From NCBI GenBank assembly GCA_016783455.1, contig JADHWN010000009.1, positions 1-64,000 of the forward strand: a DNA stretch of 64,000 bases. The letters run 5' to 3'. Under the pieces are notes generated by a model. That model had not been told where the DNA came from, did no database searches, and was given only the letters and a program-made list of their open reading frames with translations. This document shows, in pieces, positions 111-17,006 of the stretch. The translations under genes and the position numbers were made by a program. This stretch comes from Candidatus Bathyarchaeota archaeon. GTDB taxonomy: Archaea > Thermoproteota > Bathyarchaeia > TCS64. Position 1 is the first letter of the stretch; every line of letters begins with the position of its first letter.

Positions 111-545
111 ATGTCAAAGGATCACCCCACCTGGATAGAGGACCCACTCTACAACGAGATCACGTCTGTCATCCCCATCGCCTGCCTGGACCTCCTCGTA
201 GTCCACGACGGACGCCTCCTCCTTATGCTGAGGAACAACGCACCCGGGAAAGGAGTCTGGTTCGCACCCGGGGGAAGGATCCTCAGGGGAGAGACGCTGG
301 AGGAGGCGGTTACCCGCGTGCTCGGGAAGGAGACAGGGCTAGAGGCGACCCGGATAGAGCAGAAGGGCACCATGGCCCACATCTGGCCTCAGATCCACAC
401 AGTGACGACCTTCTACAGGGTGGACGTGGCCAGCGGCGACGTCGAGATGAACGACGAGCACAGCGACTACAGATGGATCACCGAGAACGCCGAGGACCTG
501 CACCCCTACGTCGCGGAGATGATAGAGCGGGCGGATATATTCTGA
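111..545 (+). CDS. Nudix hydrolase (GDP-mannose mannosyl hydrolase-like)
   Basis: Nudix-like box GGRILRGETLEEAVTRVLGKETG; PGGR and WFAPGG context; full-length copy of a tail that recurs downstream. Confidence 0.85.
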   Translation: MSKDHPTWIEDPLYNEITSVIPIACLDLLVVHDGRLLLMLRNNAPGKGVWFAPGGRILRGETLEEAVTRVLGKETGLEATRIEQKGTMAHIWPQIHTVTTFYRVDVASGDVEMNDEHSDYRWITENAEDLHPYVAEMIERADIF

Positions 546-862
546 GGACTGTGATCCCCCCCAATTAATGGTACCATTAAATGTGGAGGAAGACGCCCGC
601 GTTGCACCAACTCAACCAGCATACACTACGACAGGTTCAAAACACTCACCCCAGCAACCCACGTAACAGAGCAGCCCGCAGATATCAGGCTCACCGCGAA
701 GACTGTGAGACCATCGTCACACACGAACACCCGGTCCACCACCCCAGACAACCACACCAGCACCGAGGCAACGATATGCTCACCGTATGCAGGCATGAGA
801 GCCAGACAAACCACTAAATGGGAACCCATATAAACATGGGATTCAGATACAAAATGGGGACA

Positions 863-1111
863 AACATGGAGATGGAGACCAAAAAGGTGGACACCCAGGG
901 ACGCGTCAGCCTGCCCCCCGAGTGGAGACGCGAAGCCCTAGACGAAAACAGAGAAGTAATAATACAGCGAGAAGGAGACACCCTGATAATAAAACCCAAA
1001 CCCAGACCAAACCTCACGGCACACTTCGACTCCATCACGGTAGACATACCCCCAGAAACCTTCCAGGACCCCCACATCCTACGAAAAACACTGTACGAGA
1101 CCAGAGGATGA
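863..1111 (+). CDS. vapB: AbrB/SpoVT-type antitoxin (VapB-like)
   Basis: METKKVDTQGRVSLPPEWR swapped-hairpin motif; ATGA overlap with the downstream PIN gene; start could be 818. Confidence 0.75.
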   Translation, partial: NMEMETKKVDTQGRVSLPPEWRREALDENREVIIQREGDTLIIKPKPRPNLTAHFDSITVDIPPETFQDPHILRKTLYETRG

Positions 1112-1527
1112 GATTCCTCGACGCGTCCACGTTCCTCTACGCCATCCTCAAACCAGCGCGGCAGCTGCCACCACAGATAGCCAAAAACAAGCTACGGGCA
1201 CAGGCAATAATCACACGAATACAGGAAGGCGAACCAGTGACCACGACCATCGTCCACCTCTCAGAGACAGCCAACATACTAGAGTCGAGAACCACACAGG
1301 GAGACGCCAGAAACATCATCCAAGACATCCTGGACACGAGCAACATAACCATCACCCCCGTCGATCAAATCCAGTACGAGGCAGCCGTCAAAGAAGCCGA
1401 AAACCACGACATCGGCATTAACGACGCGCTGGCATACATCACCATGATGGAGAAAGGGATACACGAGATATACAGCTACGACAAACACTTCGACAACCTC
1501 CCAGAGGTAACCCGAGTCTGGCGGTAA
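1108..1527 (+). CDS. vapC: PIN-domain toxin (VapC-like)
   Basis: MRFLDASTFLYAIL...IGINDALAYITMMEKGIHEIYSYDKHFD, PIN acidic residues; true start is inside ORF 922..1527. Confidence 0.8.
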   Translation: MRFLDASTFLYAILKPARQLPPQIAKNKLRAQAIITRIQEGEPVTTTIVHLSETANILESRTTQGDARNIIQDILDTSNITITPVDQIQYEAAVKEAENHDIGINDALAYITMMEKGIHEIYSYDKHFDNLPEVTRVWR

Positions 1528-1626
1528 AAAAGCCAGGAACAACAGCAACGGCTTACACGTTTACCCGGTGATCAATAATCCACAACACCCAGATCACCCC
1601 GCACACAGCCCACACAAGACCGGACA

Positions 1627-1778
1627 CCCACACAACGACCACCCCTCACAGAGTAGACATCGCCAGAAGCAACTTAGAGATGAACGGCGAGCACCGCCAG
1701 TACAGGTGGGTCACCAGCCCCAGCGACCTCCACCCCTACGTCGCGGAGATGATAGAACGAGCCGGGATCTTCAGATAA
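1627..1778 (+). pseudogene. Nudix hydrolase C-terminal tail fragment (copy N2)
   Basis: RVDIARSNLEMNGEHRQYRWVTSPSDLHPYVAEMIERAGIFR* matches the end of the 111..545 protein (RVDVASGDVEMNDEHSDYRWITENAEDLHPYVAEMIERADIF*). Confidence 0.85.
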
Positions 1779-2211
1779 ACATGGAAGGATTCGCCCCTGG
1801 CTCAAGGTCATCCCCGTCTCGCCTTCGGAGCGCCCCCTATGCAGCCCTCAACGGAGATTAATTATTATTTTACATTACCCGAAGGTAACTATCAGGACAG
1901 CTAAGAACGCGTTATTAACCGCTCCATGAACGCATGGATTCACTAACCCTCATCCCAATCGAGGTATTACTGCAGCACATCCCAGCTGAACTCCGGGTAC
2001 CTGGGCCTCCCCGTCCTCCCGGGCCTTGCAGAGATCCCGTGCGCGCGAATCCAGAGGAAAAGAAGGAGATCATGGAGAGGTAGAAAACCAGGGTATATCC
2101 AATAGACATCGCTACCCCCGCCCGTCAAAAGATGATCGCTTTCACAGGTCATCCTCAAAATGCGCGACAAGTTTATGTATTCAAAATGTATACGTATTCA
2201 CGGTGTCCCGC

Positions 2212-2484
2212 ATGGAAGAGGTCATCACATCCAGATTCTCGGAGGAACTGGTCAAGAAGGTGGACGAGGCCGTCTCAAGAGGCCACTTCCGAAGCAGAAG
2301 CGACGCCCTCAGGGCGATGGTCGAAGAGTACCTAACAGAACACCCGGAGCTTTTCCTGGGAGAAGGGACCAGAGAACTGCTCACAAACGCACCAACCATG
2401 TCAGACGACGAGTTAGAGAGCCTCGGATTCAAGCTGTTTAAGGGCCTGAACGTGGCCAGACTCGTCGCCGAGGGCCGACGATGA
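2212..2484 (+). CDS. Ribbon-helix-helix antitoxin
   Basis: MEEVITSRFSEELVKKVDEAVSRGHFRSRSDALRAMVEEYL (RHH/CopG pattern); ATGA overlap with the PIN gene; start moved inside ORF 2026..2484. Confidence 0.8.
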   Translation: MEEVITSRFSEELVKKVDEAVSRGHFRSRSDALRAMVEEYLTEHPELFLGEGTRELLTNAPTMSDDELESLGFKLFKGLNVARLVAEGRR

Positions 2485-3032
2485 AAATGCTCCTCTATCT
2501 CGACACCAACATCATCCTCGCAAGGTACGCCCCAGACGAACCCCAGCACGAAGAAGCGAAAAACCTTCTAGTAAAAATAGAGGAAGGGAAGCTGGCCTCC
2601 GTGACATCCATCCTGACCCTGATCGAGGTGGTGAGCACGACAAGCAGGGCCTACAACAGGTTCAAGGGCGAACCTGAATCCATGAAACGGGAAGAGGTCG
2701 CCGGAGCCTTCCTCCGAAGAGTCTCAAACACCCAAAACCTGGGCTTCATCCCCACCGGCGGAGAGGTCTCCATAGACATCGAGGAACAAAAGGTCAAGCT
2801 CCCTGCACTATTTGCGGTCGCCCTTGAGATAGGCTCAAAGACCGGGGTAAAAACCCTAGACAACATCCACCTCGCATCAGCCCATATAGCATCACGAATC
2901 TACGGGCAGAAAATCGACTACTTCATAACGTTAGATGAGGATATCCTGAAGCACAAAGAAGAGATAAAGAACCTAATAGAGGTCAAGATCGCCACCCCAT
3001 CCGAAATATCCGAGATGACCTTTGACTCGTGA
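2481..3032 (+). CDS. vapC: PIN-domain toxin (VapC-like)
   Basis: MLLYLDTNIILARY...LDNIHLASAHIA...DYFITLDEDIL. Confidence 0.85.
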   Translation: MKMLLYLDTNIILARYAPDEPQHEEAKNLLVKIEEGKLASVTSILTLIEVVSTTSRAYNRFKGEPESMKREEVAGAFLRRVSNTQNLGFIPTGGEVSIDIEEQKVKLPALFAVALEIGSKTGVKTLDNIHLASAHIASRIYGQKIDYFITLDEDILKHKEEIKNLIEVKIATPSEISEMTFDS

Positions 3033-3035
3033 ACT

Positions 3036-3067
3036 ACCTCCCTACAAGTTGGGGGGCTTCCTGTTTC
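3036..3067. repeat. Direct repeat flanking AbiE-1, left copy (cctacaagttggggggcttcctgtttc)
   Basis: Near-copy of 4960..4990; contains a partial hairpin. Confidence 0.7.
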
Positions 3068-3202
3068 ACAGGATAAGCTTGAACCGCCGCGCGCAGTCAG
3101 GTTTCTCATACGCGAAACGTTATCGTCCTACGGGGAAACCCTAATCTTCTATTTATGTACAAAATAGTAATTTATTTATAATTTGTTACATAAAATACAT
3201 CC

Positions 3203-3832
3203 ATGAAGCGCTTAACCAGATACATCCTAACCACGTTCGGCGACGAAACGGTGCGAAAAGCCAGCCTGGAAGACGCCTGCAAGAAGTTCGAGGCTGACCC
3301 GAAATACACGATCAACTACATGTCAGCCTACGGATACCTGGTTCGCATCCTAAACGACATCTACTATGTTAAAACTCTAGAGGAATTCTCGTTGAAGAAA
3401 GCCCTAGACCCGCATAGGATAATATCGATGGGACTAGAGGAGCTGGCCGCTAACTGGTACTTCGGCCTCAACACGGCGCTGCGAATGAACGGGGCAACTC
3501 ACGAGTACTCTGACACAATATTTGTGCTGAACGATAAGGTATACAGAAACAAGGAAGTCAGAATAGCAGAGACAAAAGTTAAGTTCATTAAAATAAGCCC
3601 AAAACTACTGGGTTTTGGAGTGGTAAAAGAAAATAGCATACGCTACTCTGATCTAGAAAAGACGATTCTCGACATCATCTACCTCTCCCGGTATAGGTCT
3701 GTACCGGAAGGCAGGATCGTCACAACAGTGGAGGAATACAAAGAAAAAGTGGACAGTGGGAAGATGCGCGAACACCTGTCAGCCTATCCATCGAAAGTAG
3801 AGGAGATCGCGAAGAATGCCGGACTTGTCTGA
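3203..3832 (+). CDS. AbiEi-like antitoxin (type IV TA)
   Basis: Overlaps and precedes the AbiEii-like nucleotidyltransferase; winged-helix-like N-terminus. Confidence 0.65.
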   Translation: MKRLTRYILTTFGDETVRKASLEDACKKFEADPKYTINYMSAYGYLVRILNDIYYVKTLEEFSLKKALDPHRIISMGLEELAANWYFGLNTALRMNGATHEYSDTIFVLNDKVYRNKEVRIAETKVKFIKISPKLLGFGVVKENSIRYSDLEKTILDIIYLSRYRSVPEGRIVTTVEEYKEKVDSGKMREHLSAYPSKVEEIAKNAGLV

Positions 3833-4724
3833 GTTCATCGGATTCGTTTCCAGCAAAGCCCGCGTCTACAAACCGTTGCTGATCGAACAGGACATTCTCA
3901 TCCACAGACTACTAGATACAATAAACACATCACCTCCGTTTACAGGCAACTACCTATTCAAAGGCGGAAGTTGCTTGGTAAAGTGCTATTTCGGGTACTA
4001 CCGCTTCAGCGTGGATCTGGACTTCACTTGGAAACACCAGACTCACTTCAACGTTGCCAAGAGCACGCTCCAGAGGCGTCTTAAAGATGAGACCACGTCC
4101 TTCGGTAAATCCCTTATGGAGGCAGCTAAGAAGCTTGACCTTGACTTCAAGAACGACCCAACGGATAGGCGCTACATCGAATTCGGTGGCAGCAAACGTA
4201 TGACCACATATAAGCTGTGGAAAGGAAAAGACATGATTAAAGTGCAGATCAACTTCGTTGAAGACCTGCTGTTCCCCGGCAAAAAAATCCAAGTTAGGAC
4301 ACTACTAGACAGCATTGAGCTGGAAAGGGACGAGCAAGCATACTTTAGCGAGTACCTTGAAGCTTACAAGACATTCATCGTTGAAGCATACGATGAACGA
4401 GAAATACTCTGCGAAAAGGTAAGGGCTATCCTCACAAGGAAGACCCAGAAGCTACGCGACTTTTACGACCTGTTTATGCTGGATGGGCATGGATTCAAAG
4501 CTGAGCAGTTCACCGAAGAGATTGTGCGCAAAACACGGGCATCGCTCCATTACAGAAAATACAGAAATAACCTAGAAGCCAATAAGGCGATCATTGAATT
4601 AGGTCATGATATACTTGAAAACCCGTACGAGAGAGGACTATTCATAACAAATCCGCCTACAGCTTTCGACAGGTTCATGGACAAAATGTCCGACCAGCTG
4701 AAAGAGCTAGCCGCAAGATTCTGA
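3816..4724 (+). CDS. AbiEii-like nucleotidyltransferase toxin
   Basis: GNYLFKGGSCLVKCYFGYYRFSVDLDFTW (KGGT...R.S.DLDF pattern) plus C-terminal REILCEKVRAIL...RDFYDLF. Confidence 0.85.
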   Translation: MPDLSEFIGFVSSKARVYKPLLIEQDILIHRLLDTINTSPPFTGNYLFKGGSCLVKCYFGYYRFSVDLDFTWKHQTHFNVAKSTLQRRLKDETTSFGKSLMEAAKKLDLDFKNDPTDRRYIEFGGSKRMTTYKLWKGKDMIKVQINFVEDLLFPGKKIQVRTLLDSIELERDEQAYFSEYLEAYKTFIVEAYDEREILCEKVRAILTRKTQKLRDFYDLFMLDGHGFKAEQFTEEIVRKTRASLHYRKYRNNLEANKAIIELGHDILENPYERGLFITNPPTAFDRFMDKMSDQLKELAARF

Positions 4725-4959
4725 ATCAGCGGCTTTGCAGTTTCTGTAAAATGATATACATGCAGGTTTCTAAGTAAAAAGAAGACGTCTTTAAACCTTC
4801 AAACCCTACGTCTATACCCTCAAAGTCTCATCACCACGGTTCCTAACTGTCGCCATCACTCTCCCACACTAAAAAATCAAACCTTCTATACGAATTGGGG
4901 AGAACATTTTCTCCAAATCGGATAGACTAGAATATAACGTCATTCAACAGCGTGATCAA

Positions 4960-4990
4960 ACTCCCAACAAGTTGGGAGGCTTCCTGTTTC
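4960..4990. repeat. Direct repeat flanking AbiE-1, right copy, with perfect hairpin CTCCCAAC-AA-GTTGGGAG
   Basis: ctcccaacaagttgggaggcttcctgtttc, near-copy of 3036..3067. Confidence 0.7.
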
Positions 4991-4995
4991 GCGCG

Positions 4996-5080
4996 CAACG
5001 TAATCGTCCTACTGGAAAACGATAATTAATCATAATTGTTTTCCTTCAGGACAATAAAGGTTATAAATCGTGCGCGCGCG
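4996..5080. repeat. 75-85 bp intergenic repeat R1
   Basis: caacgtaatcgtcctactggaaaacgataattaatcataattg...cttcaggacaataaaggt, near-identical to 8687..8770; CG tracts on both sides. Confidence 0.8.
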
Positions 5081-5193
5081 GCCAGCGGCGACGTCGAGAT
5101 GAACGACGAGCACAGCGACTACAGGTGGATCACCGAGAACCTGCAACCCTTCGTCAGGGAGATGATAGCCCGATCTGGTATCTTCTTATTATC
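5081..5193 (+). pseudogene. Nudix hydrolase C-terminal tail fragment (copy N3)
   Basis: ASGDVEMNDEHSDYRWITENLQPFVREMIARSGIF matches the end of the 111..545 protein. Confidence 0.85.
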
Positions 5194-6578: not shown

Positions 6579-6650
6579 AACCTTGACATCGCTAAGAGAG
6601 TAAATCTCCGGCTCCCCTTCAAAGAACGCCCCCAAGGATGCCCTCAGCCG
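6579..6650 (-). repeat. Gene-tail repeat, copy 2 (reverse strand)
   Basis: ccttgacatcg...gagta...ggctccccttcaaagaacgccyccaargatgccctcagcc matches 7411..7490; reverse reading GSLEAFFEGEPVLYSLDDVKVV-like. Confidence 0.7.
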
Positions 6651-6712: not shown

Positions 6713-7078
6713 TCACACATACTTCGACGCTTCCACTAGCAGGTCTCTGATGGCAGGTCTCCTAGAGTGCTGAGGCTCTGATTTATCAGCCACATGCTTG
6801 TGATGCGGGAAGGTCTCAACGTCGGGGTAATGCGGCCGGTTATCGTATCTCAGAATCATCCTACCCCCGGCGTCTTGAAGGTGGTAGGCGTACTTATCAA
6901 CTTCACCGCGTAGCCGATACTCGAAAAGGCGGAGTTCGCCGCCGTTTATGAACCTCGCGACCAGCCTGATGTACCCCTCATCGCCGAGCCTCAGCCCGCT
7001 GACGACGCTAACATCAACAATCAGCGGGTGACGCTTTATCTCGTTGACGAGCTCGGTAAATCGTTCCTCTAGGCTCAA
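6713..7078 (-). CDS. tumE: TumE-like toxin (DUF6516)
   Basis: RLFEYRLRGEVDKYAYHLQDAGGRMILRYDNRPHYPDVETFPHHKHV (RYDN.PH..e..tfPhHKH signature). Confidence 0.85.
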   Translation of the reverse strand: MSLEERFTELVNEIKRHPLIVDVSVVSGLRLGDEGYIRLVARFINGGELRLFEYRLRGEVDKYAYHLQDAGGRMILRYDNRPHYPDVETFPHHKHVADKSEPQHSRRPAIRDLLVEASKYV

Positions 7079-7380
7079 GGTAAGATCTCTTTAAGGGCCT
7101 CTCTCTCCTTCGAGAGCCTCTTCAACAGGTCAATACATGTCTCCCACTCAAGGAAATCAACATCGTCCTCAAGAACGCCCTGACCGCTCCTCTCCTGAAA
7201 CTCCCTCGATGCGAAGCCATACCTCTCCTCAAAATCCTTCAACCTCAACTGAAGCTTACCTATCGTCTTATCCACATCGCTCAACCTCAGACTGAGGCTG
7301 CTGAGGACCACCCTCTTAACCTCCTCCTCCGGAATCTTCGTTCCAACGACCTCAATCTTAGCCGATACGCCCACCCCCAT
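7075..7380 (-). CDS. Putative partner antitoxin of the TumE-like toxin
   Basis: Immediately upstream of and overlapping the DUF6516 gene; charged helical protein. Confidence 0.6.
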   Translation of the reverse strand: MGVGVSAKIEVVGTKIPEEEVKRVVLSSLSLRLSDVDKTIGKLQLRLKDFEERYGFASREFQERSGQGVLEDDVDFLEWETCIDLLKRLSKEREALKEILP

Positions 7381-7410
7381 TCAATTTAACTTTGCACAAC
7401 ACTTCTACAC

Positions 7411-7490
7411 GACCTTGACATCGTCCAAAGAGTAGAGTACAGGCTCCCCCTCAAAGAACGCCTCCAAAGAGCCCTCAGCCAGTTTCATCA
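7411..7490 (-). repeat. Gene-tail repeat, copy 1 (reverse strand)
   Basis: Partner of 6579..6650; the two copies bracket the TumE module. Confidence 0.7.
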
Positions 7491-7754
7491 CCGAAAGAGC
7501 CTCCCGATCACCTATCAGCAGATCTATCTTCTCATTCAACATGGACAGGAACTCCCTGATCTCCATGAAGCCCACACTGAACTCTTCAGATCGATCTTCT
7601 TAAACATTCTTCTTAAGGCTCGAACCATGACGCCGACTATGCTCCGCTCCTCGTTCAACGCGGGAATGCAGGCAACGACGAACAGATCAGACTCAGTCAT
7701 GGAGACAACATGCCCGATACAGCGACATATGCTCCATCATGGGCCGCGTTCCAG

Positions 7755-8645: not shown

Positions 8646-8686
8646 AACTACCACGTACAGCCTCATAGGCAGAAACGTCGCGCGCG

Positions 8687-8770
8687 CAACGTAATCGTCC
8701 TACTGGAAGACGATAATTAACCATAATTGAATTCCTTCAGGACAATAAAGGTCGTAGATCATAGCGCGCG
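8687..8770. repeat. 75-85 bp intergenic repeat R2
   Basis: caacgtaatcgtcctactggaagacgataattaaccataattgaattccttcaggacaataaaggt; copy of 4996..5080. Confidence 0.8.
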
Positions 8771-8839: not shown

Positions 8840-9391
8840 ATGCTAAATTTGAATACATTTATTACTCAGGAAAATGTGATGAATACATGGATGACATCAA
8901 CAGGCAGGTGGACCCAGGACGAGGAGCGCCTCATGGAGGAACTCTACCCGATAACCGACACCCCCTTCCTCTCGAAGATCCTCGACAGGCGCGTATCCGC
9001 CATCGAGGACAAGGCCTCCAGGATGGGCCTCAAGAAGACGGACAGCCGTGAACCCCCCGCTGAGAACAGGATAAGGATAATTGAGAGGGGCTTCAAGCTC
9101 AGGACGCGGAAGGTCAGGATAGACTACGTCCTCGACACACGGAAGATCATCGAGAACGCCATCACCAACCTTGAGGAGCTGGCCGGAGAGGCCCACACAC
9201 GCGCCACCGCCAAGTACCTCTCCACCGACACACGGCAGAAGTGGGCCCGCATCGAGACCTACATCTACCAGACAATAAACACCCTCACCAAGAACTACGA
9301 CAGCCAGCAGATAGCCCAACGGCTCGAGGAGCTGAACACCCGTGTCGAGAAACTTATGGAAGAAGCTCAGGAGCCTGGAGACCCAGATTAA
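8840..9391 (+). CDS. Putative small terminase-like DNA-binding protein
   Basis: N-terminal Myb/HTH-like segment (WTQDEERLMEELYPITDTPFLSKILDRRVSAIEDKASRMGL); overlaps and precedes TerL. Confidence 0.5.
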   Translation: MLNLNTFITQENVMNTWMTSTGRWTQDEERLMEELYPITDTPFLSKILDRRVSAIEDKASRMGLKKTDSREPPAENRIRIIERGFKLRTRKVRIDYVLDTRKIIENAITNLEELAGEAHTRATAKYLSTDTRQKWARIETYIYQTINTLTKNYDSQQIAQRLEELNTRVEKLMEEAQEPGDPD

Positions 9392-10703
9392 CGACCTCAC
9401 GTACAGGCCCCCGCCCCTCCCCCGGGACCCAGCGGAGTTCTGCAGGCGGATACTCCGCATCGAGCCCACAGACTACCAGAGGAGGCTCCTCGAATCCCAG
9501 GCGAAGCGCATAGTCCTCCGATGGGCCCGGCAGACGGGGAAGACCACCGCCCTCGCCTGCAGATGCATAACCCACTCCGCCCTCAACCCCGACAACACGA
9601 CCCTCATCGTCGCCCCCGGCCTCCGCCAGTCCATGATCCTAGGCGACAGGATCAGGGAGCTACTGGACCGCATACCCCGCAGACATCAACCCATCGTAGG
9701 CCAGAGGCTCCGCACCATCTTCCGCTTCAGGAACGGGAGCACCATCACCGTCCTCCCCAACTCCGAGAACCAGCTCAGAGGATTCACAGCCCACCTCATC
9801 GTCATCGACGAGGCCGCCTTCTTCCACAACGACGAATCCATATTCCACAACATCCTCCCCCCCATGCTCGCCACCACCGCCGGCACACTCATCGTCTCCA
9901 GCACCCCCTGGGGCAAGAACACAGTCTTCTACGCCCTCAACCAGGACCCCGACTACGAGAAACACACCGCCACCTGGAGAGACGCCGTCCGGGAACACCG
10001 CTACAGCCCAGAATTCACCACCCAGCTCCAGAAAGTGAAGGAGTCCCGCCCCCAGGTCTTCACAATGGAGTACGAAGCCCAGTTCACCGAGGAGGTCGAC
10101 ACATGGCTCACCCAGGACCTCCTCGCCAAATGCTGCAGCCACGACGCCGAATACCACGGCTTCAACACCGAGCAGAACGGCCGCTTCTACATGGGCATAG
10201 ACCTAGCGGAACGCGTCGACTACACCGCCATAGCCGTCATCCAGCGAATCGGAGCCCACCTACACCTCGTCCACATGCACCGCCCCAGGAAGGGCACAAC
10301 CATCGCATCCGCCATCGGCTACGCCAAGATCCTCAACCAACGATGGACCACCATAGAGGCCATCTACGTCGACAACACAAAACACGGCGACTACATAATC
10401 CAGGACATGGACCACGCAGGCCTACCCCAAACCACAGGCATACACTTCACCCAGAACACCAAACAGGAGATGGCCCAGATCCTCAAACAACGCATGACCG
10501 AGGGCACCCTCAGCATCCCCTACGACCGCGACACCCTCGACGAGCTCAACACAGAGAAATACGAGCTAACCAAGACAGGCCGCATAACCTTCAGCCACCC
10601 CCACGGCACCCACGACGACAGATTCTGGGCCCTCGCCCTCGCAGCCTACGCCGCCGAGAAAGCACATCCACCGCCAAGCAGACCCACCGCGAAGACCATA
10701 TGA
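9342..10703 (+). CDS. terL: Large terminase subunit (ATPase-nuclease)
   Basis: Walker A RWARQTGKTTA, Walker B LIVIDEAAF, SSTPWGKNTVFY, RNase H-like nuclease MGIDLAERVDYTAIAV and GTHDDRFWALALAAYA. Confidence 0.9.
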   Translation: MSRNLWKKLRSLETQINDLTYRPPPLPRDPAEFCRRILRIEPTDYQRRLLESQAKRIVLRWARQTGKTTALACRCITHSALNPDNTTLIVAPGLRQSMILGDRIRELLDRIPRRHQPIVGQRLRTIFRFRNGSTITVLPNSENQLRGFTAHLIVIDEAAFFHNDESIFHNILPPMLATTAGTLIVSSTPWGKNTVFYALNQDPDYEKHTATWRDAVREHRYSPEFTTQLQKVKESRPQVFTMEYEAQFTEEVDTWLTQDLLAKCCSHDAEYHGFNTEQNGRFYMGIDLAERVDYTAIAVIQRIGAHLHLVHMHRPRKGTTIASAIGYAKILNQRWTTIEAIYVDNTKHGDYIIQDMDHAGLPQTTGIHFTQNTKQEMAQILKQRMTEGTLSIPYDRDTLDELNTEKYELTKTGRITFSHPHGTHDDRFWALALAAYAAEKAHPPPSRPTAKTI

Positions 10704-10850
10704 GGACGTCGTCACGACCATCAATCGACAATGACGAGTCTTCAGGCATGGAGTCAACCCGCTCCAAAGCATTTATAACATTCTATGTAACAATAATTTA
10801 CTAGAAGGGAAGTTTCGTTACATGGAATATAGTTTAGGTCCCCTCGAGGC
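10689..10850 (+). repeat. Terminase-end repeat, copy A
   Basis: gcgaagaccatatgaggacgtcgtcacgaccatcaatcgacaatgacgagtctycaggcatggagtcaaccc... recurs at 13457 and 15780. Confidence 0.9.
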
Positions 10851-11625
10851 CGAACTAGTGTTCACCCTAGAGAAGGACAGCAGAACCGTATTCACCGTAG
10901 ACGACGCCAGAGGTCTACTGGACGCCTCAGATGAAGTCCTGTGGAAGCTACTCCACAGGTTGACCCTCAAGGGGAGGATACAGAGAATTAAAAGGGGTTT
11001 CTACGTCCTCGTCCCTGCTAAGGCCGGCTACCTGCCCAAGTGGCGGGAGCAGGTCTACGCGATGATCGACGACCTCCTCGACGACTACTATCTCGGGTAC
11101 TGGACCGCGATGAACCACTGGCACATGACGGAGCAGCTCCCCCTCACAGCGTTCATCGCCACGACGTCCAGGAGAAGGGACTTCGTCTACGACGACGCCG
11201 TCCCCATAAACTTCATCACGCTGAAGCCCCGCAAGTTCTTCGGGTGGACCACCGAGGAGGCTGGAAGCCACAGGTTCCGTGTATCCGACCCCGAGAAGAC
11301 CGTCGTGGACTCGATGGACCTCCCCCAGTACTCCGGCGGCATGGCGGAGGCGGCCAAGACCCTCTCCCACGATCTGGACTGGAGTAAGGTGATAGAGTAC
11401 GCAGACAGGCAGGGAAACAGGACCGTGCACAAGAGACTGGGATACCTCATCGAGCTCCAAGGGACGGACGTCCCCTCGGACGCCCTGAAGCAGCTGAGAT
11501 CCAGGATAAGCTCAGGCTACAGCTGGCTAGACCCCACGGCCCCCCACAAACCCCTGAGACACGACTCACGGTGGAACCTAAAGATCAACCTCCCCCACGA
11601 GGCCCTGGAGGAGCATCAGACGTGA
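10822..11625 (+). CDS. AbiEi-like antitoxin (winged HTH)
   Basis: MEYSLGPLEAELVFTLEKDSRTVFTVDDARGLL...LTLKGRIQRIKRGFYVLVP. Confidence 0.8.
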   Translation: MEYSLGPLEAELVFTLEKDSRTVFTVDDARGLLDASDEVLWKLLHRLTLKGRIQRIKRGFYVLVPAKAGYLPKWREQVYAMIDDLLDDYYLGYWTAMNHWHMTEQLPLTAFIATTSRRRDFVYDDAVPINFITLKPRKFFGWTTEEAGSHRFRVSDPEKTVVDSMDLPQYSGGMAEAAKTLSHDLDWSKVIEYADRQGNRTVHKRLGYLIELQGTDVPSDALKQLRSRISSGYSWLDPTAPHKPLRHDSRWNLKINLPHEALEEHQT

Positions 11626-12398
11626 TAACCGACATAGAGCTCCGCCGGCTCTCCGTGGAAACAGGCGTACCCGTGGGCACCGTCGAGAAGGACCTCGCCA
11701 TAACATGCGCACTCTACGCCATCTCAAGAAGGAGGCTGAGGGACCACCTGGCGTTCAAAGGAGGAACGGCCATCAAGAAGATATACCACCCCGGAGCCAG
11801 ATTCTCCGAGGACCTGGACTTCACCACCATAGACCTGGAGGAGGAAGAAGCCGCAACCCAGCTGGAGTCCCTCAACGACGCCGAGATCAACTCCATCACA
11901 TTCATGGAGATACACCAGGACGGACACACCCACAGAGGCACAAGGTACAGGCTCCCCTACATCGGCCCACTCAACCACGTAAACAGCATACGCCTCGACC
12001 TCTCATTCAGAGACGACCTCATCCTCCCCCAGGAGGAGAGAACCGTCCAATCGGGCTTCAGCGAGGACATAACCTCAAGAGTCAAAGCCCTATCCTTCAC
12101 CGAGCTCATGGCCGAAAAACTGAGAGCCATGATGACACGTGAGAACCCCAGAGACTACTACGACGCATGGGCACACCTACACAAGATAGACGAAAAAGAG
12201 CACCTCAAAGAACTCACCCAGAGAAAATGCGCCCTGGCCGAGTACCCCTACAACCCGTCAAAAATCCTCGACCAAGACGTACTATCAAGAATAGAATCCG
12301 CCTGGAAAACACAGCTGCAGCACCTGACCCCCGACTACGTCGAGTTCCAGACGATAATCCCCAAGCTGAAAGAACAGACAAGATTCCTCTTCACCTGA
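11622..12398 (+). CDS. AbiEii-like nucleotidyltransferase toxin
   Basis: RRRLRDHLAFKGGTAIKKIYHPGARFSEDLDFTTIDL; GTG start overlapping the AbiEi stop (ORF 11571 trimmed). Confidence 0.9.
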   Translation: MITDIELRRLSVETGVPVGTVEKDLAITCALYAISRRRLRDHLAFKGGTAIKKIYHPGARFSEDLDFTTIDLEEEEAATQLESLNDAEINSITFMEIHQDGHTHRGTRYRLPYIGPLNHVNSIRLDLSFRDDLILPQEERTVQSGFSEDITSRVKALSFTELMAEKLRAMMTRENPRDYYDAWAHLHKIDEKEHLKELTQRKCALAEYPYNPSKILDQDVLSRIESAWKTQLQHLTPDYVEFQTIIPKLKEQTRFLFT

Positions 12399-12409
12399 AA
12401 CCAAACCAG

Positions 12410-12608
12410 AAACCTCAGCATCCCCTACGATCGCACCCTCCTCGACGAGCTCAACACCCAACGACACGCCCTCACCAAGACAGGCCGCATAGCCCTCGAC
12501 CACCCACCCGGAACCCACGACGACAGGTTCTGGGCCCTCGCCCTCGCAGCCTACGCCGCCGAAAAAGCACAGCCCCCGCCCAGCACCCCCATAGCGAAGC
12601 ACATCTAA
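12410..12608 (+). pseudogene. Terminase C-terminal tail fragment (T2)
   Basis: LSIPYDRTLLDELNTQRHALTKTGRIALDHPPGTHDDRFWALALAAYAAEKAQPPPSTPIAKHI* matches the end of 9342..10703. Confidence 0.9.
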
Positions 12609-12715
12609 CACCCAAATTCCGTCAGAATATTACATAGACATCCATAAAACCCACCATAGATAATAATAAACACGTTTAAATAGTATTTAACAGACAAAAA
12701 TAGTAGTGTAAACCT

Positions 12716-12973
12716 TTGTCATATGAGACCAGGGTAACGAGGCAGGGACAGACGACGATCCCGAAGCCTCTCCGAGACAGATACGGGATCCAGGAGGGAG
12801 ATGAGGTCACCTACATAGACCTGGGAGACCACATCGCCATGATACCTGTACCAAAACACCCTCTGGAGACACTGAAGCAGCTTGAAATAGACATAGAAGA
12901 ATCCGTGCACGAGATGAGGGATGAGGCGAGGGAAGCCGCCAGAAGGCTGGTGGAAGAGAAGCACGGGAGGTGA
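12716..12973 (+). CDS. vapB: AbrB-type antitoxin
   Basis: YETRVTRQGQTTIPKPLRDRYGIQEGDEVTYIDLGDHIAMIPV. Confidence 0.85.
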   Translation: MSYETRVTRQGQTTIPKPLRDRYGIQEGDEVTYIDLGDHIAMIPVPKHPLETLKQLEIDIEESVHEMRDEAREAARRLVEEKHGR

Positions 12974-13396
12974 CCCCGCATCCTCATCGAGTCAGACCTC
13001 CTCCTCGCCTACATCAAGAAGAGCGACTGGCTGAAACCCACATCCGAGAAGATACTCGAACACATAGCCTCAGGTGAAGCCCCCGACGTCTACGCCTCCA
13101 CCGCCACACTCCAGGAGATCATCTTCTGGTTCTTCAACAGAGACCTGAAGAGGGAGCTGATCCAGGCCACGAACGCGATATCCCACATAGACAACATCAG
13201 ATGGATCCCCCTCACCCCAGACACCTGCCTCACCGCCTCCATGCTCATCAAGGAATACGGGGTAAACCCCTTCGACGCATACCACGCCGCCATAGCACTA
13301 TCCGAGGACAAAACGATACTCAGCACGGAACACGTATACGACAGAATCAAGGGAATAACGAGAATCGACCCCGAGACATACGCCAGACTACTATAG
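12970..13396 (+). pseudogene. vapC: PIN-domain toxin with apparent 1-nt frameshift after the start
   Basis: RILIESDLLLAYIKKSDWLKP...NPFDAYHAAIALSEDKTILSTEHVYDRI is open from 12974 to 13396 but lacks a start; GTG at 12970 is out of frame by one C in CCCC. Confidence 0.75.
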
Positions 13397-13456
13397 ACAC
13401 CACCCCCGCCCAGCCCCCACCCAAGCCACCAACAGCCAACGCCAAACAGGCCAGTA

Positions 13457-13650
13457 GCCAAGATCATATGAGAACGTCGTCACGACCATCAATCGACAAT
13501 GACGAGTCTCCAGGCATGGAGTCAACCCACCCCAAAGCATCTAGGATATTCCATGTAACAATAATTTACTAGAAGGGAGGTATCGTTACACGGAATATAG
13601 TCTGGGTCCTCTCGAAGCACATCTAGCGTTCACACTTGAGAGGGATATCA
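13457..13650 (+). repeat. Terminase-end repeat, copy B, running into a degenerate AbiEi start
   Basis: gccaagatcatatgagaacgtcgtcacgaccatcaatcgacaatgacgag...; then TEYSLGPLEAHLAFTLERD, an AbiEi N-terminus with ATG changed to ACG at 13590. Confidence 0.85.
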
Positions 13651-13786
13651 GGCACGTGGCCAAGACCATATGACATATCCAGCCTTAAAATCCCAATATC
13701 ACCAAAAAAACATAAATATGGGAAAAGAAAGAAAACACGACAAAAAACTAATAAATAACCAAGACACTGACTTCCTGGTGAAACCC

Positions 13787-14038
13787 ATGGCCGTCGAAGT
13801 CGGAAAATACGGTCGCATCCTCCTCCCAAAGGACGTAAGGAAAAGATACGACCTGGACGAGGACTCCAGACTCATAGTCCGAGAACGCCGAGGCGAGATC
13901 ATACTCATCCCAGTGAAAAGATACAAGAACCCCACCGAAGCCCTCTACGGGAGCCTGAAGACCGAGACCCAGATAGACGACCCCAAGGAATACGCCCGGA
14001 GCCACATCGCGAAGAAGCTGAGAGAGGAACTACAGTGA
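13787..14038 (+). CDS. vapB: AbrB-type antitoxin
   Basis: MAVEVGKYGRILLPKDVRKRYDLDEDSRLIVRERRGEIILIPV; start moved inside ORF 13670..14038. Confidence 0.85.
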   Translation: MAVEVGKYGRILLPKDVRKRYDLDEDSRLIVRERRGEIILIPVKRYKNPTEALYGSLKTETQIDDPKEYARSHIAKKLREELQ

Positions 14039-14436
14039 CACGCTTCGTCGACACCAACATCTTCATATACGCCATGACAGGCCACCCCGAGTTCGGAGAC
14101 ACCGCCAGAGACATCCTCAAACGCATCGAGGAAGGAGAAAAGGCATGCACCTCAACCCTAGTCCTCTGCGAGATAGCATGGGTGTTGGAAGCCATGGGCA
14201 GACAACCCGAAATAAAACCCACCCTAGAGAAGATCCTCTCCTACGACACCCTGGAGATAGCGGGATACGACGAGGACGACCTCTTAGTAGGAGCACAGAC
14301 CGCGGTCAAGCATCGCATCGACTTCAACGACGGCGTAAACCTCGCGATAATGATGAAAGCCTCCATCACCGACGCCTACACCAACGACATGAAACACCTC
14401 GGCACAGTAGACTTCATCACCACCCACTTCGAATAG
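14035..14436 (+). CDS. vapC: PIN-domain toxin (VapC-like)
   Basis: MTRFVDTNIFIYAMTGHPE...CEIAWVLE...IDFNDGVNLAIM. Confidence 0.9.
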   Translation: MTRFVDTNIFIYAMTGHPEFGDTARDILKRIEEGEKACTSTLVLCEIAWVLEAMGRQPEIKPTLEKILSYDTLEIAGYDEDDLLVGAQTAVKHRIDFNDGVNLAIMMKASITDAYTNDMKHLGTVDFITTHFE

Positions 14437-14538
14437 AACCCACATTCACAAGAACAAAGACGCCACACCAATCTCAAACATACACAAGAACAGGTCATAT
14501 CCACCCACACCCCATGAAACGTCCAAGCCCCTCTCGTC

Positions 14539-14708
14539 AACACACCCTCCTCGACGAACTCAACACCCAACGCCACACACTCACCAAGACAGGCCGCATA
14601 GCCCTCGACCACCCACCAGGAACCCACGACGACAGATTCTGGGCCCTCGCCCTCGCAGCCCACGCCGCCGAACAGCCAACACCAAGCCCGCCTATAGCAA
14701 AGAACTGA
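14539..14708 (+). pseudogene. Terminase C-terminal tail fragment (T4)
   Basis: TLLDELNTQRHTLTKTGRIALDHPPGTHDDRFWALALAAHAAEQPTPSPPIAKN*. Confidence 0.9.
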
Positions 14709-14810
14709 AGACCACGTCAAACACTCGATCATAAACTACTAAGACAGTCCGGAGAAGCGATGACTGAGCTCCTGAATCAGCGCAGAACGAAGAGGTGATG
14801 GGTAAACTGA

Positions 14811-15083
14811 ATGAAAAAAGGGCATACTTATAACATAATGGGTAAAAGGATCACCTGTGGAAACATGAGCGCAGTCTCAATGGACGACCGTGGTCGAGTT
14901 ACCCTCCCAGCCGAGATGAGGTCAAAGATCAACGCAAAAAAATTCATCGCCTATCTAGAGGGAGACACAATCATGCTAATACCCATCCCAGACCCCTCAG
15001 AGGCCAAAGGATCCGTGAATATACCATGGAGCATCGAGGAGCTGGAGGAGGCAGGTGAGGAGCTTGCTCCCAAGAGAGGCTGA
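14811..15083 (+). CDS. vapB: AbrB-type antitoxin
   Basis: MSAVSMDDRGRVTLPAEMRSKINAKKFIAYLEGDTIMLIPI. Confidence 0.85.
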   Translation: MKKGHTYNIMGKRITCGNMSAVSMDDRGRVTLPAEMRSKINAKKFIAYLEGDTIMLIPIPDPSEAKGSVNIPWSIEELEEAGEELAPKRG

Positions 15084-15510
15084 AAAGAAGGCCCTCATAG
15101 ACTCGGATGTCTTCATATCCTACGTCAAAGGCGACGAGATGATCGAACACTCCGAGAGCGTCGTAGATTCGATAATAGGCGGAAGAATGGAGGCCCTGAT
15201 CTCAAGCATCCTCTTCGACGACGTCATAACAGGGCTCCGCTCGAAGGGCATGGAGATCAGCGAGGTGATAAAGGTCATCCTGGCCATCGCCTCCATCGAC
15301 CACACAGCCCTACCCCTTAACTCAGCCATCGCCGTCAACGCTTTAATGCTATACGAGAAACACGGAGGACCCAGAAGACTACACTACTTCGACGCATTCC
15401 ACGTAGCGACCGGGAAACTTCACGACCTACCCCTGATAACGAGCGATAAATACATCATAGAATATCAACGAGAACTAGGGATCAAAGCAATAGACCTGAG
15501 AACCATTTGA
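15055..15510 (+). CDS. vapC: PIN-domain toxin (VapC-like)
   Basis: ALIDSDVFISYVKGDEMIEHSE...LHYFDAFHVATGKLHDLPLITSDKYI. Confidence 0.9.
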   Translation: MRSLLPREAEKKALIDSDVFISYVKGDEMIEHSESVVDSIIGGRMEALISSILFDDVITGLRSKGMEISEVIKVILAIASIDHTALPLNSAIAVNALMLYEKHGGPRRLHYFDAFHVATGKLHDLPLITSDKYIIEYQRELGIKAIDLRTI

Positions 15511-15730
15511 CCCACCAAACCCCCAAAACAACTATGTCCACCAATGATAAAAGAGACCACAGAACCCCTCTCCCAAAACAGGACGACCCGAAAAACTACA
15601 CCAAAAACCACTTGAAGAGCCCCATAGGACACCACCATTACCTGGAATCGATACAACGCTTAAAACAACAAACAGAGACCACAGTCACCACATCAAGCCC
15701 CTCAAGAACCCCCTAGACCAGCAGACCCCC

Positions 15731-15900
15731 GGCAGCCCACGCCGCCGAGAAAGCACAGCCACCGCCAAGCAGACCCACCGCGAAGACCATATGAGAACGT
15801 CATCACGACCATCAATCAACAACGACGAGTTTCCAGGCATGGAGCCAACCCACCCCAAAGCATCTGGGATATCCCATGTAACAATAATTAACCAGAAGGC
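15731..15900 (+). repeat. Terminase tail fragment (T5) plus terminase-end repeat, copy C
   Basis: gcagcccacgccgccgagaaagcacagccaccgccaagcagacccaccgcgaagaccatatgagaacgtcatcacgaccatcaatc... nearly identical to 10646..10735. Confidence 0.9.
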
Positions 15901-15953
15901 AAGTCTCGTTCGTACGCGCGAGAGGTGCCCGGCTGTCGCAATTTAGCAAATCC

Positions 15954-16379
15954 CTACCCATCCGCGAAGGAAGCCAAGCCCGTTATCCTCCCCGTCTCCG
16001 CGGCCTTCTCCGCGAGCCTCACGTCCGCTGTGACCAGGGTGATGTCCCGTTGAACTGCCAGGGACAAGTAAGCTGCGTCATACATCGTGGTATCGTACCT
16101 GTCGGCGAGTTCAACAGCCTTCACCATCCCTCCCTGGGTCGGAGGCTCAAGCACGATCCCCATCAGGAAGAGAGCCGCGGCCGCCCTCTCCTGATCCTCA
16201 ACGGTCAGGGACGGATTGCAGCGGAGGGCGTTGGCGACCTCGTACGCCAACAGGGTCGGCGCCGTCAACGTCAGCCCCCCGTCCATGTGAGACCGCCTGA
16301 GAATCAACGCCTCCCCCCTCTGGTCCTCCTGAGTGAACCACTTGACGACGACGCTGGCGTCGACGACGAGCCTACTCAT
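15954..16379 (-). CDS. vapC: PIN-domain toxin (VapC-like)
   Basis: MSRLVVDASVVVKWFTQED...YDTTMYDAAYLSLAVQRDITLVTADVRL. Confidence 0.92.
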   Translation of the reverse strand: MSRLVVDASVVVKWFTQEDQRGEALILRRSHMDGGLTLTAPTLLAYEVANALRCNPSLTVEDQERAAAALFLMGIVLEPPTQGGMVKAVELADRYDTTMYDAAYLSLAVQRDITLVTADVRLAEKAAETGRITGLASFADG

Positions 16380-16587
16380 CTCTACTCCGCCATCTACGGA
16401 TCTCTCGGGCCCCGCTCCAATGGGGATCCGTCTTACGCGAGAGCCCGTCCATGACCTCGGAGGCCTCCCTCATCTCCTCCTCCCTGACCCGCCTCTCAAC
16501 GTTCTCCCTTATGTACTCAGACCAGTTGATCTGGGGGTACCTCCCCATCTTCTCCTTGAGGCCCTCGTCAACCCTAACGGATATCAT
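16372..16587 (-). CDS. vapB: VapB-type antitoxin
   Basis: MISVRVDEGLKEKMGRYPQINWSEYIRENVERRVREEE; ATGA overlap with VapC. Confidence 0.85.
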   Translation of the reverse strand: MISVRVDEGLKEKMGRYPQINWSEYIRENVERRVREEEMREASEVMDGLSRKTDPHWSGAREIRRWRSRDE

Positions 16588-16631
16588 ATACACACATGTA
16601 TATACATGGATGTATATATACGTATGTGTGG
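16583..16631. promoter_or_regulatory. Imperfect inverted repeat upstream of vapBC (candidate operator)
   Basis: CACACATGTATATACATGGATGTATATATACGTATGTGTG; arms read CACACAT(AC)GTATATAyACAT on both strands. Confidence 0.6.
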
Positions 16632-16714
16632 AGCGAGGAACAGAAAAACGCAAACCCGAAGCAAAACCGCCCCCCTAAACATCAAACAAGCATCTCGAAC
16701 ACACGCAGGAAAGC

Positions 16715-16800
16715 CTCAAACCACCCACCCGAAACCCACGACCACAGGCCCCAAGTACACGTTACGGCAGCCCACGCCGCAGAAGAGCCGACACCCAGCA
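16715..16800 (+). pseudogene. Degraded terminase C-terminal tail fragment (T6)
   Basis: ctcaaaccacccacccgaaacccacgaccacaggcccc...gcagcccacgccgc aligns with ctcgaccacccacccggaacccacgacgacaggttctgggccctcg...gcagcctacgccgcc of T2. Confidence 0.7.
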
Positions 16801-16807
16801 CCCCCAT

Positions 16808-17006
16808 CACCCACACCACCCAAACCACACACCCACACCACCCAAGCAAAACCACAGCAGAACAGCAGCAAAACAGCACCCAAACCAACAAAACAAAACC
16901 CAAAAACCAAACAAAAACAAAAAACAAACAAGAAAAAACCACCACCCCCCCCCCAAACACCCCAACAGAAGGGGACCCAGCCACACACCGCACGGAGCAC
17001 GAGGCA
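16808..17006 (+). other. 199-nt tract without any T on the + strand (A/C-rich, C10 run)
   Basis: Direct reading; first T after 16807 is at 17007. Confidence 0.95.

Follow-up and report, generated by a model that had tools for sequence, protein, structure and literature searches.

Toxin-antitoxin modules stacked behind a terminase gene and separated by copies of its 3' end in an uncultured bathyarchaeon

The array behind the terminase gene

We analysed a stretch of 64,000 nucleotides (the window) from a Candidatus Bathyarchaeota archaeon (assembly GCA_016783455.1, contig JADHWN010000009.1, positions 1 to 64,000). Between 9.3 and 17 kb it carries a TerS-like gene, an intact gene for the terminase large subunit (TerL) and then five toxin-antitoxin (TA) modules, with copies of the TerL 3' tail that separate the modules from each other and close the array (Table 1). 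The TerL product is recognized in Pfam as Terminase_6N (6e-10) and Terminase_6C (2e-8); its ATPase and RNase H-like nuclease domains are above cut-off, and the motifs RQTGKT, DEAA and GTHDDRFW are all present in the alignment. The gene directly 5' of TerL, which occupies the same place in the relatives G013:C8, G018:C194 and G019:C18, gave nothing above cut-off in a Pfam scan and is therefore called TerS-like by position only.

The repeated tail corresponds to the last ~65 codons of TerL. At the DNA level, TerL positions 10508-10699 match 12413-12604 (83%) and 14522-14713 (65%), the two copies T2 and T4 being 87% identical to each other. The 33-nt core GACGACNGNTTCTGGGCCCTCGCCCTCGCAGCC has three occurrences in the window, all of them in TerL, T2 and T4, while none is expected in shuffles; the 24-nt core gave no further copy in the 2.2-Mb assembly with 3 mismatches allowed. 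Together with the intact TerL and the five TA modules, these repeats establish that the alternation of gene, cassette and gene tail described in an initial annotation of the window is real. Two of the tails had to be redrawn. The third, previously read as a 15-nt fragment, is present but longer, and is followed by a second, bare 15-nt end; T5 is present as well, but it runs on into AbiE upstream sequence instead of ending at 15794. Both T3 and T5 thus also copy sequence past the TerL stop codon and the upstream part of AbiEi. In cassette 2 the PIN frame opens with ATC, where the relative in G011:C156 has ATG; because of this replacement, the toxin may be inactive or may use an unusual start.

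Table 1. Features of the terminase array and of the two other genes with copied 3' tails in the window
Feature	Position	Strand	Basis or remark
TerS-like gene, 183 aa, overlaps TerL	8840-9391	+	Open reading frame (ORF) and position
TerL, terminase large subunit, platform gene, 453 aa	9342-10703	+	Pfam Terminase_6N/6C
Conserved core GACGACAGATTCTGGGCCCTCGCCCTCGCAGCC, codes DDRFWALALAA	10614-10646	+	At or just upstream of homology loss among TerL orthologues
Cassette 1: AbiEi 10822-11625 and AbiEii 11571-12398	10822-12398	+	Family searches
T2: TerL tail copy, 65-66 codons, open, without start codon	12402-12605	+	Repeats
Cassette 2: AbrB/MazE 12716-12973 and PIN, frame open from 12980	12716-13396	+	Pfam
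T3: TerL 3' end, intergenic sequence and first ~60 nt of a lost AbiEi copy	13432-13651	+	84% to 10664-10883
Bare 15-nt TerL 3' end GCCAAGACCATATGA, closing the AbiEi remnant	13659-13673	+	Repeat family
Cassette 3: AbrB/MazE 13670-14038 and PIN 14035-14436	13670-14436	+	Pfam
T4: TerL tail copy, ~54 codons	14522-14713	+	Repeats, tail profile
Cassette 4: AbrB-like 14811-15083 and PIN 15055-15510	14811-15510	+	Pfam
T5: last 20 TerL codons, intergenic sequence and AbiE upstream remnant	15731-15910	+	88% to 10641-10819
Cassette 5: inverted VapC-like PIN 15954-16379 and VapB-like 16372-16653	15954-16653	-	ORFs; names by reading
T6: degraded TerL tail, array end	16692-16817	+	Weak (profile score 13.5), but position and strand fit
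NUDIX-like hydrolase, second platform gene	111-545	+	Self-comparison; NUDIX by motif reading
NUDIX 3' tail copy, 75%; AbrB-PIN between gene and copy	1628-1775	+	Self-comparison
NUDIX 3' tail copy, 82%; VapBC-like and AbiE-like pairs between	5077-5186	+	Self-comparison
Small gene, 56 aa, third platform	7405-7575	-	ORF, self-comparison
Small-gene 3' tail copy, 81%	6580-6649	-	Self-comparison

Recurrence in relatives and probable exchange within the tail

TerL was searched against 100 relatives, a tail profile was then run on 27 genomes of the family and 257 of the class, and the contigs were read; every genome is metagenome-assembled (a MAG), from an uncultured organism, with a single genome for each species. 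TerL or a remnant of it, followed by cassettes that end in TerL tails, was found on about a dozen further contigs, all of them from Candidatus Bathyarchaeota or misbinned relatives. Their cargo is varied: a 410-aa protein, a membrane protein, a 93-aa protein and an AbiE pair in G013:C50; a 356-aa protein, a 145-aa protein, a MEDS protein and a metallo-beta-lactamase fold in G019:C32; a 206-aa protein, a 67-aa protein and a PARIS AriAB-like ATPase in G013:C8; and a 5.5-kb metabolic operon in G019:C18. Genes without a family are part of this cargo, and many of its proteins remain without family assignment. Further arrays were found in G018:C194, in G011:C1 and in L152 and L155, which are filed under bacterial MAGs (Thermotogae and Desulfobacterales) and are probably misbinned Bathyarchaeia. 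Since the same layout recurs in relatives with other cargo, it is a recurrent way of adding genes. In the class-wide profile search, isolated TerL C-terminal tails came mainly from the window's own family. No paper describing such arrays was found in the open-access literature.

The satellite tails share a narrow geometry. Some 33 of them, spread over about 15-20 loci, reach at most ~69 codons (207 nt) of a gene of ~455-505 codons, and with a full-length TerL profile none begins 5' of model position ~390 of 459. All are in the orientation of TerL; their 3' ends mostly reach the TerL 3' end and their 5' ends are ragged. Within the core, conservation of the A-L-A-L codons exceeds the expectation from codon usage (0.57 versus 0.48 in columns 41-50). 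The window hints at a polarity of tail decay along its array, but G013:C50 and G019:C32 have none, and the idea was abandoned.

Comparison of close TerL orthologues located a break in homology inside the tail. Six comparisons, covering two TerL types, show ~85-95% identity as far as the core and then a collapse about 75 to 35 nt before the stop codon; downstream of this breakpoint there is no homology, cassette included. The synonymous difference (pS) is 0.30-0.31 in the body of TerL versus 0.66-0.71 in its last 30 codons. By contrast, control genes on the same contigs (FAH, MFS, and genes for 206-aa and 234-aa proteins) keep their homology to the stop codon without a drop, the exception being a TerS-like gene, which falls to 0.62. 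The six comparisons are not independent, as they derive from two groups of three loci, and at least four events are therefore needed.

The cassettes, in turn, are shared across backgrounds. G013:C8 and G011:C1, which differ in TerL type and genus, have the 206-aa cassette in common (88.6% identity over 1188 nt); the conserved unit covers the 3' half of the tail before the cassette, the cassette itself and the tail after it as far as the core. In the window, the AbiE unit (10590-12398) aligns with G013:C50 over 1822 nt at 76% identity, the match ending at the AbiEii stop codon, while the 67-aa unit is common to G013:C8 and G000:C58. Conversely, at two orthologous chromosomal sites (G013:C50/G019:C60 and G013:C8/G019:C18) the left flank and TerL are ~90% identical and the cassettes differ. 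Because the orthologues lose homology together with the cassette, and because cassettes are common to different genera and TerL types, these comparisons suggest that cassettes came in repeatedly at the TerL 3' end, with recombination within the tail. The initial annotation had proposed just such repeated entry at the 3' end of one gene with duplication of its tail, a proposal that the dozen further arrays, the two orthologous sites with different cassettes and the shared cassettes now strengthen.

Copied 3' tails at other genes

The tail-copy pattern is not specific to TerL. Upstream of it, the window carries a second array of the same kind (111-5186) built on a NUDIX-like gene, and a small gene on the minus strand is separated from a copy of its own tail by a two-gene TA-like module (6713-7380, minus strand). 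The picture drawn in the initial annotation needs changing on two points: the cargo is wider than TA modules, and the pattern extends to these two other genes. In G006:C281 we found three pairs of gene and tail copy, two of them around AbrB-PIN or AbiE-like pairs. In unselected sequence, 800 kb from the window's family yielded 7 candidate pairs and 400 kb from two other families yielded 2, counts that are small and include unverified candidates; in one case from the other families (L312), a PIN gene lies behind a YchF-like GTPase gene with a copied tail. The idea that tail duplication is confined to the window's family was rejected on the strength of those 2 candidates, although TerL-tail arrays themselves were found almost only in that family. 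Inserts at TerL, the NUDIX-like gene, the small gene and others are flanked by repeats of 54-460 nt.

A separate 90-nt repeat, 90% identical, occurs at 4990-5078 and 8681-8770, and perhaps near 3120. It is bounded by GCGCGC runs, and its copies directly precede a NUDIX tail copy and TerS. Alternating CG runs lie within 15 nt of 12 of the 102 repeat boundaries set by hand in the window and its relatives, versus 3.1 expected from random intergenic positions. The P-value is not a clean one, since the motif had already been spotted when these boundaries were curated, and a CG-run junction motif is a lead only.

Formation of the arrays and related systems

On this basis, we consider it probable, though by no means certain, that the array is a stack of cassettes added successively at the 3' end of a provirus-derived TerL, through homologous recombination in the tails and illegitimate first joins. 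Incoming DNA would bring a module (here a TA pair) and, with it, its own copy of the TerL 3' end. Recombination within the last ~90 nt of TerL would then fuse the 5' part already in place to the newly arrived 3' end, so that TerL stays complete while its former 3' end comes to lie beyond the new module as a satellite tail. The first capture at a gene would depend on illegitimate joining close to its 3' end, yielding a long duplication, and spread between arrays would proceed by ordinary homologous recombination of tails, on excised circles or transferred DNA, without a dedicated recombinase. The same mode of capture would operate at other genes, TerL being favoured perhaps as a gene dispensable for the cell and common to related viruses. 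Homologous recombination is preferred here since the pattern is shared by unrelated genes and no enzyme tracks with the arrays.

Several observations weigh against this scheme. The TerL pair G006/G011 retains homology to just beyond the stop codon, and a loose constraint on the C-terminus may explain part of the drop in identity. The AbiE remnants in T3 and T5 are not predicted by a simple stepwise model. Tails differ from TerL by 8-35%, so that no recent event has been caught in the act. The initial annotation had looked to sister genomes for the loss of single cassettes, each with one tail; orthologous sites with different cassettes were indeed found, but no clean empty site with one tail, nor an excised circle, was seen for any cassette in these MAGs (one per species), which are incomplete and fragmented. 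Finally, tyrosine integrases are common in these genomes, and one acting in trans is conceivable.

A dedicated site-specific cassette system, which we judge rather unlikely, would use the TerL 3' end (~200 nt, core DDRFWALALAA) as its attachment site with a recombinase encoded elsewhere, much as for integron cassettes, for dif modules or where integrase-less islands accumulate at a 3' gene end. The breakpoints within a ~40-nt stretch, unit edges at the core, satellite length bounded at ~207 nt, uniform orientation of the tails and excess conservation of the A-L-A-L codons would all fit such a system, and tyrosine integrases able to act in trans score over cut-off in 19 of the 27 family genomes, with or without arrays, these MAGs being incomplete. 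Yet no recombinase-like ORF was noticed within the arrays or next to them, the integron integrase profile TIGR02249 had no hit above cut-off in the family genomes (0/27), and serine recombinases were absent from the array genomes. Single-strand folding of eight tails revealed nothing attC-like (z-scores -0.54 to 1.33), and the pattern also occurs at other genes, whose 3' ends are unrelated. A bolder version, in which the 3' end of a domesticated TerL is the site of an archaeal cassette system parallel to integrons and TerL or another recombinase exchanges cassettes at the nuclease active-site codons, appears unlikely.

The role of the TerL 3' end as a provirus attP was also considered and rejected: the left end of the G000:C58 provirus has no tail, and other elements have no end repeats. 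Likewise, in the TerL-bearing elements examined, a comparison of the two ends gave no direct repeat of the short identical att type.

Tandem duplication of TerL-TA units with loss of the TerL 5' part from all copies but one, the second proposal of the initial annotation, would account for the TerL end and AbiE upstream sequence shared by T1 (TerL itself), T3 and T5, as expected of a duplicated TerL-AbiE unit. It is disfavoured by the length of the ~33 satellites, since random 5' loss would leave pieces longer than ~69 codons, and by cassettes that differ in kind and tails that follow unrelated cargo. We therefore hold it to be very unlikely.

TerL itself is under purifying selection in close orthologue pairs from relatives (w 0.12-0.14), although viral structural genes are missing at these sites. 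This intactness, and the position of a related TerL at the right end of a provirus encoding portal, capsid and tail proteins (G000:C58, read from ORFs) or next to a chromosomal gene (G027:C12), would suit a tail that serves as a packaging (cos/pac) site: the terminase would cut there, related viruses would move the adjoining cassettes, tails would recombine on arrival, and TerL would be kept for this reason. No packaging site is known for these viruses, however, the exact core motif is missing from IMG/VR, and the copied tails of non-viral genes require no terminase; we rate this explanation as highly improbable. Viral relatives of TerL were missed by a single-protein search and reached up to ~50% identity with an alignment search; in the IMG/VR TerL loci viewed there was no array, and the portal gene comes after TerL. 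As one refuting outcome, the initial annotation had named an alignment in which the fragments form a single family of small, independent genes. This reading can safely be set aside: T2 has an open frame of 69 codons, but the satellites lack start codons of their own, show ragged 5' ends and in many cases carry stops or frameshifts, which marks them as something other than genes.

The initial annotation knew of no described element with this architecture, but the general process has a precedent. Mruk & Kobayashi 2013 (PMC3874152), describing the work of Nobusato et al. 2000, report that restriction-modification genes can insert while duplicating a long stretch of the target, variable in length and of the order of 100 bp. 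This little-studied process, insertion with long target duplication, is the closest one known and is probably related to the arrays, as it involves addiction-type genes, no visible transposase and long variable target duplications. In our arrays, by contrast, many insertions stack at the 3' end of one gene, the cargo is wider and the host is archaeal; moreover, the last ~20 codons of TerL differ between close orthologues, the resident 3' end being apparently replaced. Because of this swap, the arrays appear to be a variant of the process and not a plain member.

Integrons and clusters of attC sites lacking integron integrases (CALINs), archaeal ones included (Ghaly et al. 2022, PMC9668308), similarly combine a platform with a cassette array, repeated sites and cassettes common to several arrays. 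Here the repeats are the tail of a protein-coding gene, and membership of the integrons fails on the integrase and on the folding of the site. The dif (pdif) modules of Acinetobacter plasmids (PMC6449649) are small, carry TA cargo, are bounded by recombination sites and are moved in trans. Their sites are short Xer sites, whereas ours are gene tails of 60-207 nt. Composite islands of the staphylococcal cassette chromosome (SCC) at orfX and integrase-less islands likewise enter again and again at one gene's 3' end and leave that gene intact. Unlike in such stacked islands of the SCC or cis-mobilizable element (CIME) type, neither recombinase genes nor short att repeats were found in our arrays. 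In phage and satellite defence hotspots (e.g. P2/P4), defence and TA cargo is exchanged beside a fixed viral gene, mostly by replacement; our arrays instead gain cargo and build up copies of the gene tail.

Arrays that record successive captures at one gene bear on the question of how TA and defence modules travel when no transposase is visible. Since cassettes are shared across genera and orthologous sites differ in content, the question becomes testable by comparative genomics and simple recombination assays. The arrays further suggest that no integron integrase is needed for integron-looking gene arrays to form, and they point to the 3' ends of genes, those of viral terminase genes above all, as accretion sites in Bathyarchaeia.

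Some minor observations concern TerL and its surroundings. The provirus in G000:C58 (44.9-78 kb) is of the head-tailed type, with TerS-TerL at its right end, a tyrosine integrase near its left end and an ABC-ATPase/acetyltransferase fusion just upstream of TerS-TerL. The second TerL type (L002 and L003, that is G000:C50 and C58) has a four-cysteine insertion of ~39 residues at residue 388 of the window TerL, just before the tail. In other Bathyarchaeia families (G064:C68, G080:C62, G082:C9, G038:C1) TerL is in two reading frames, split near residue 272-280, and ~1.6 kb separates the two frames in G064. Elsewhere in the window, tandem paralogous genes with 64-69% identity occupy 23.2-27.4 kb and 30.2-33.2 kb.

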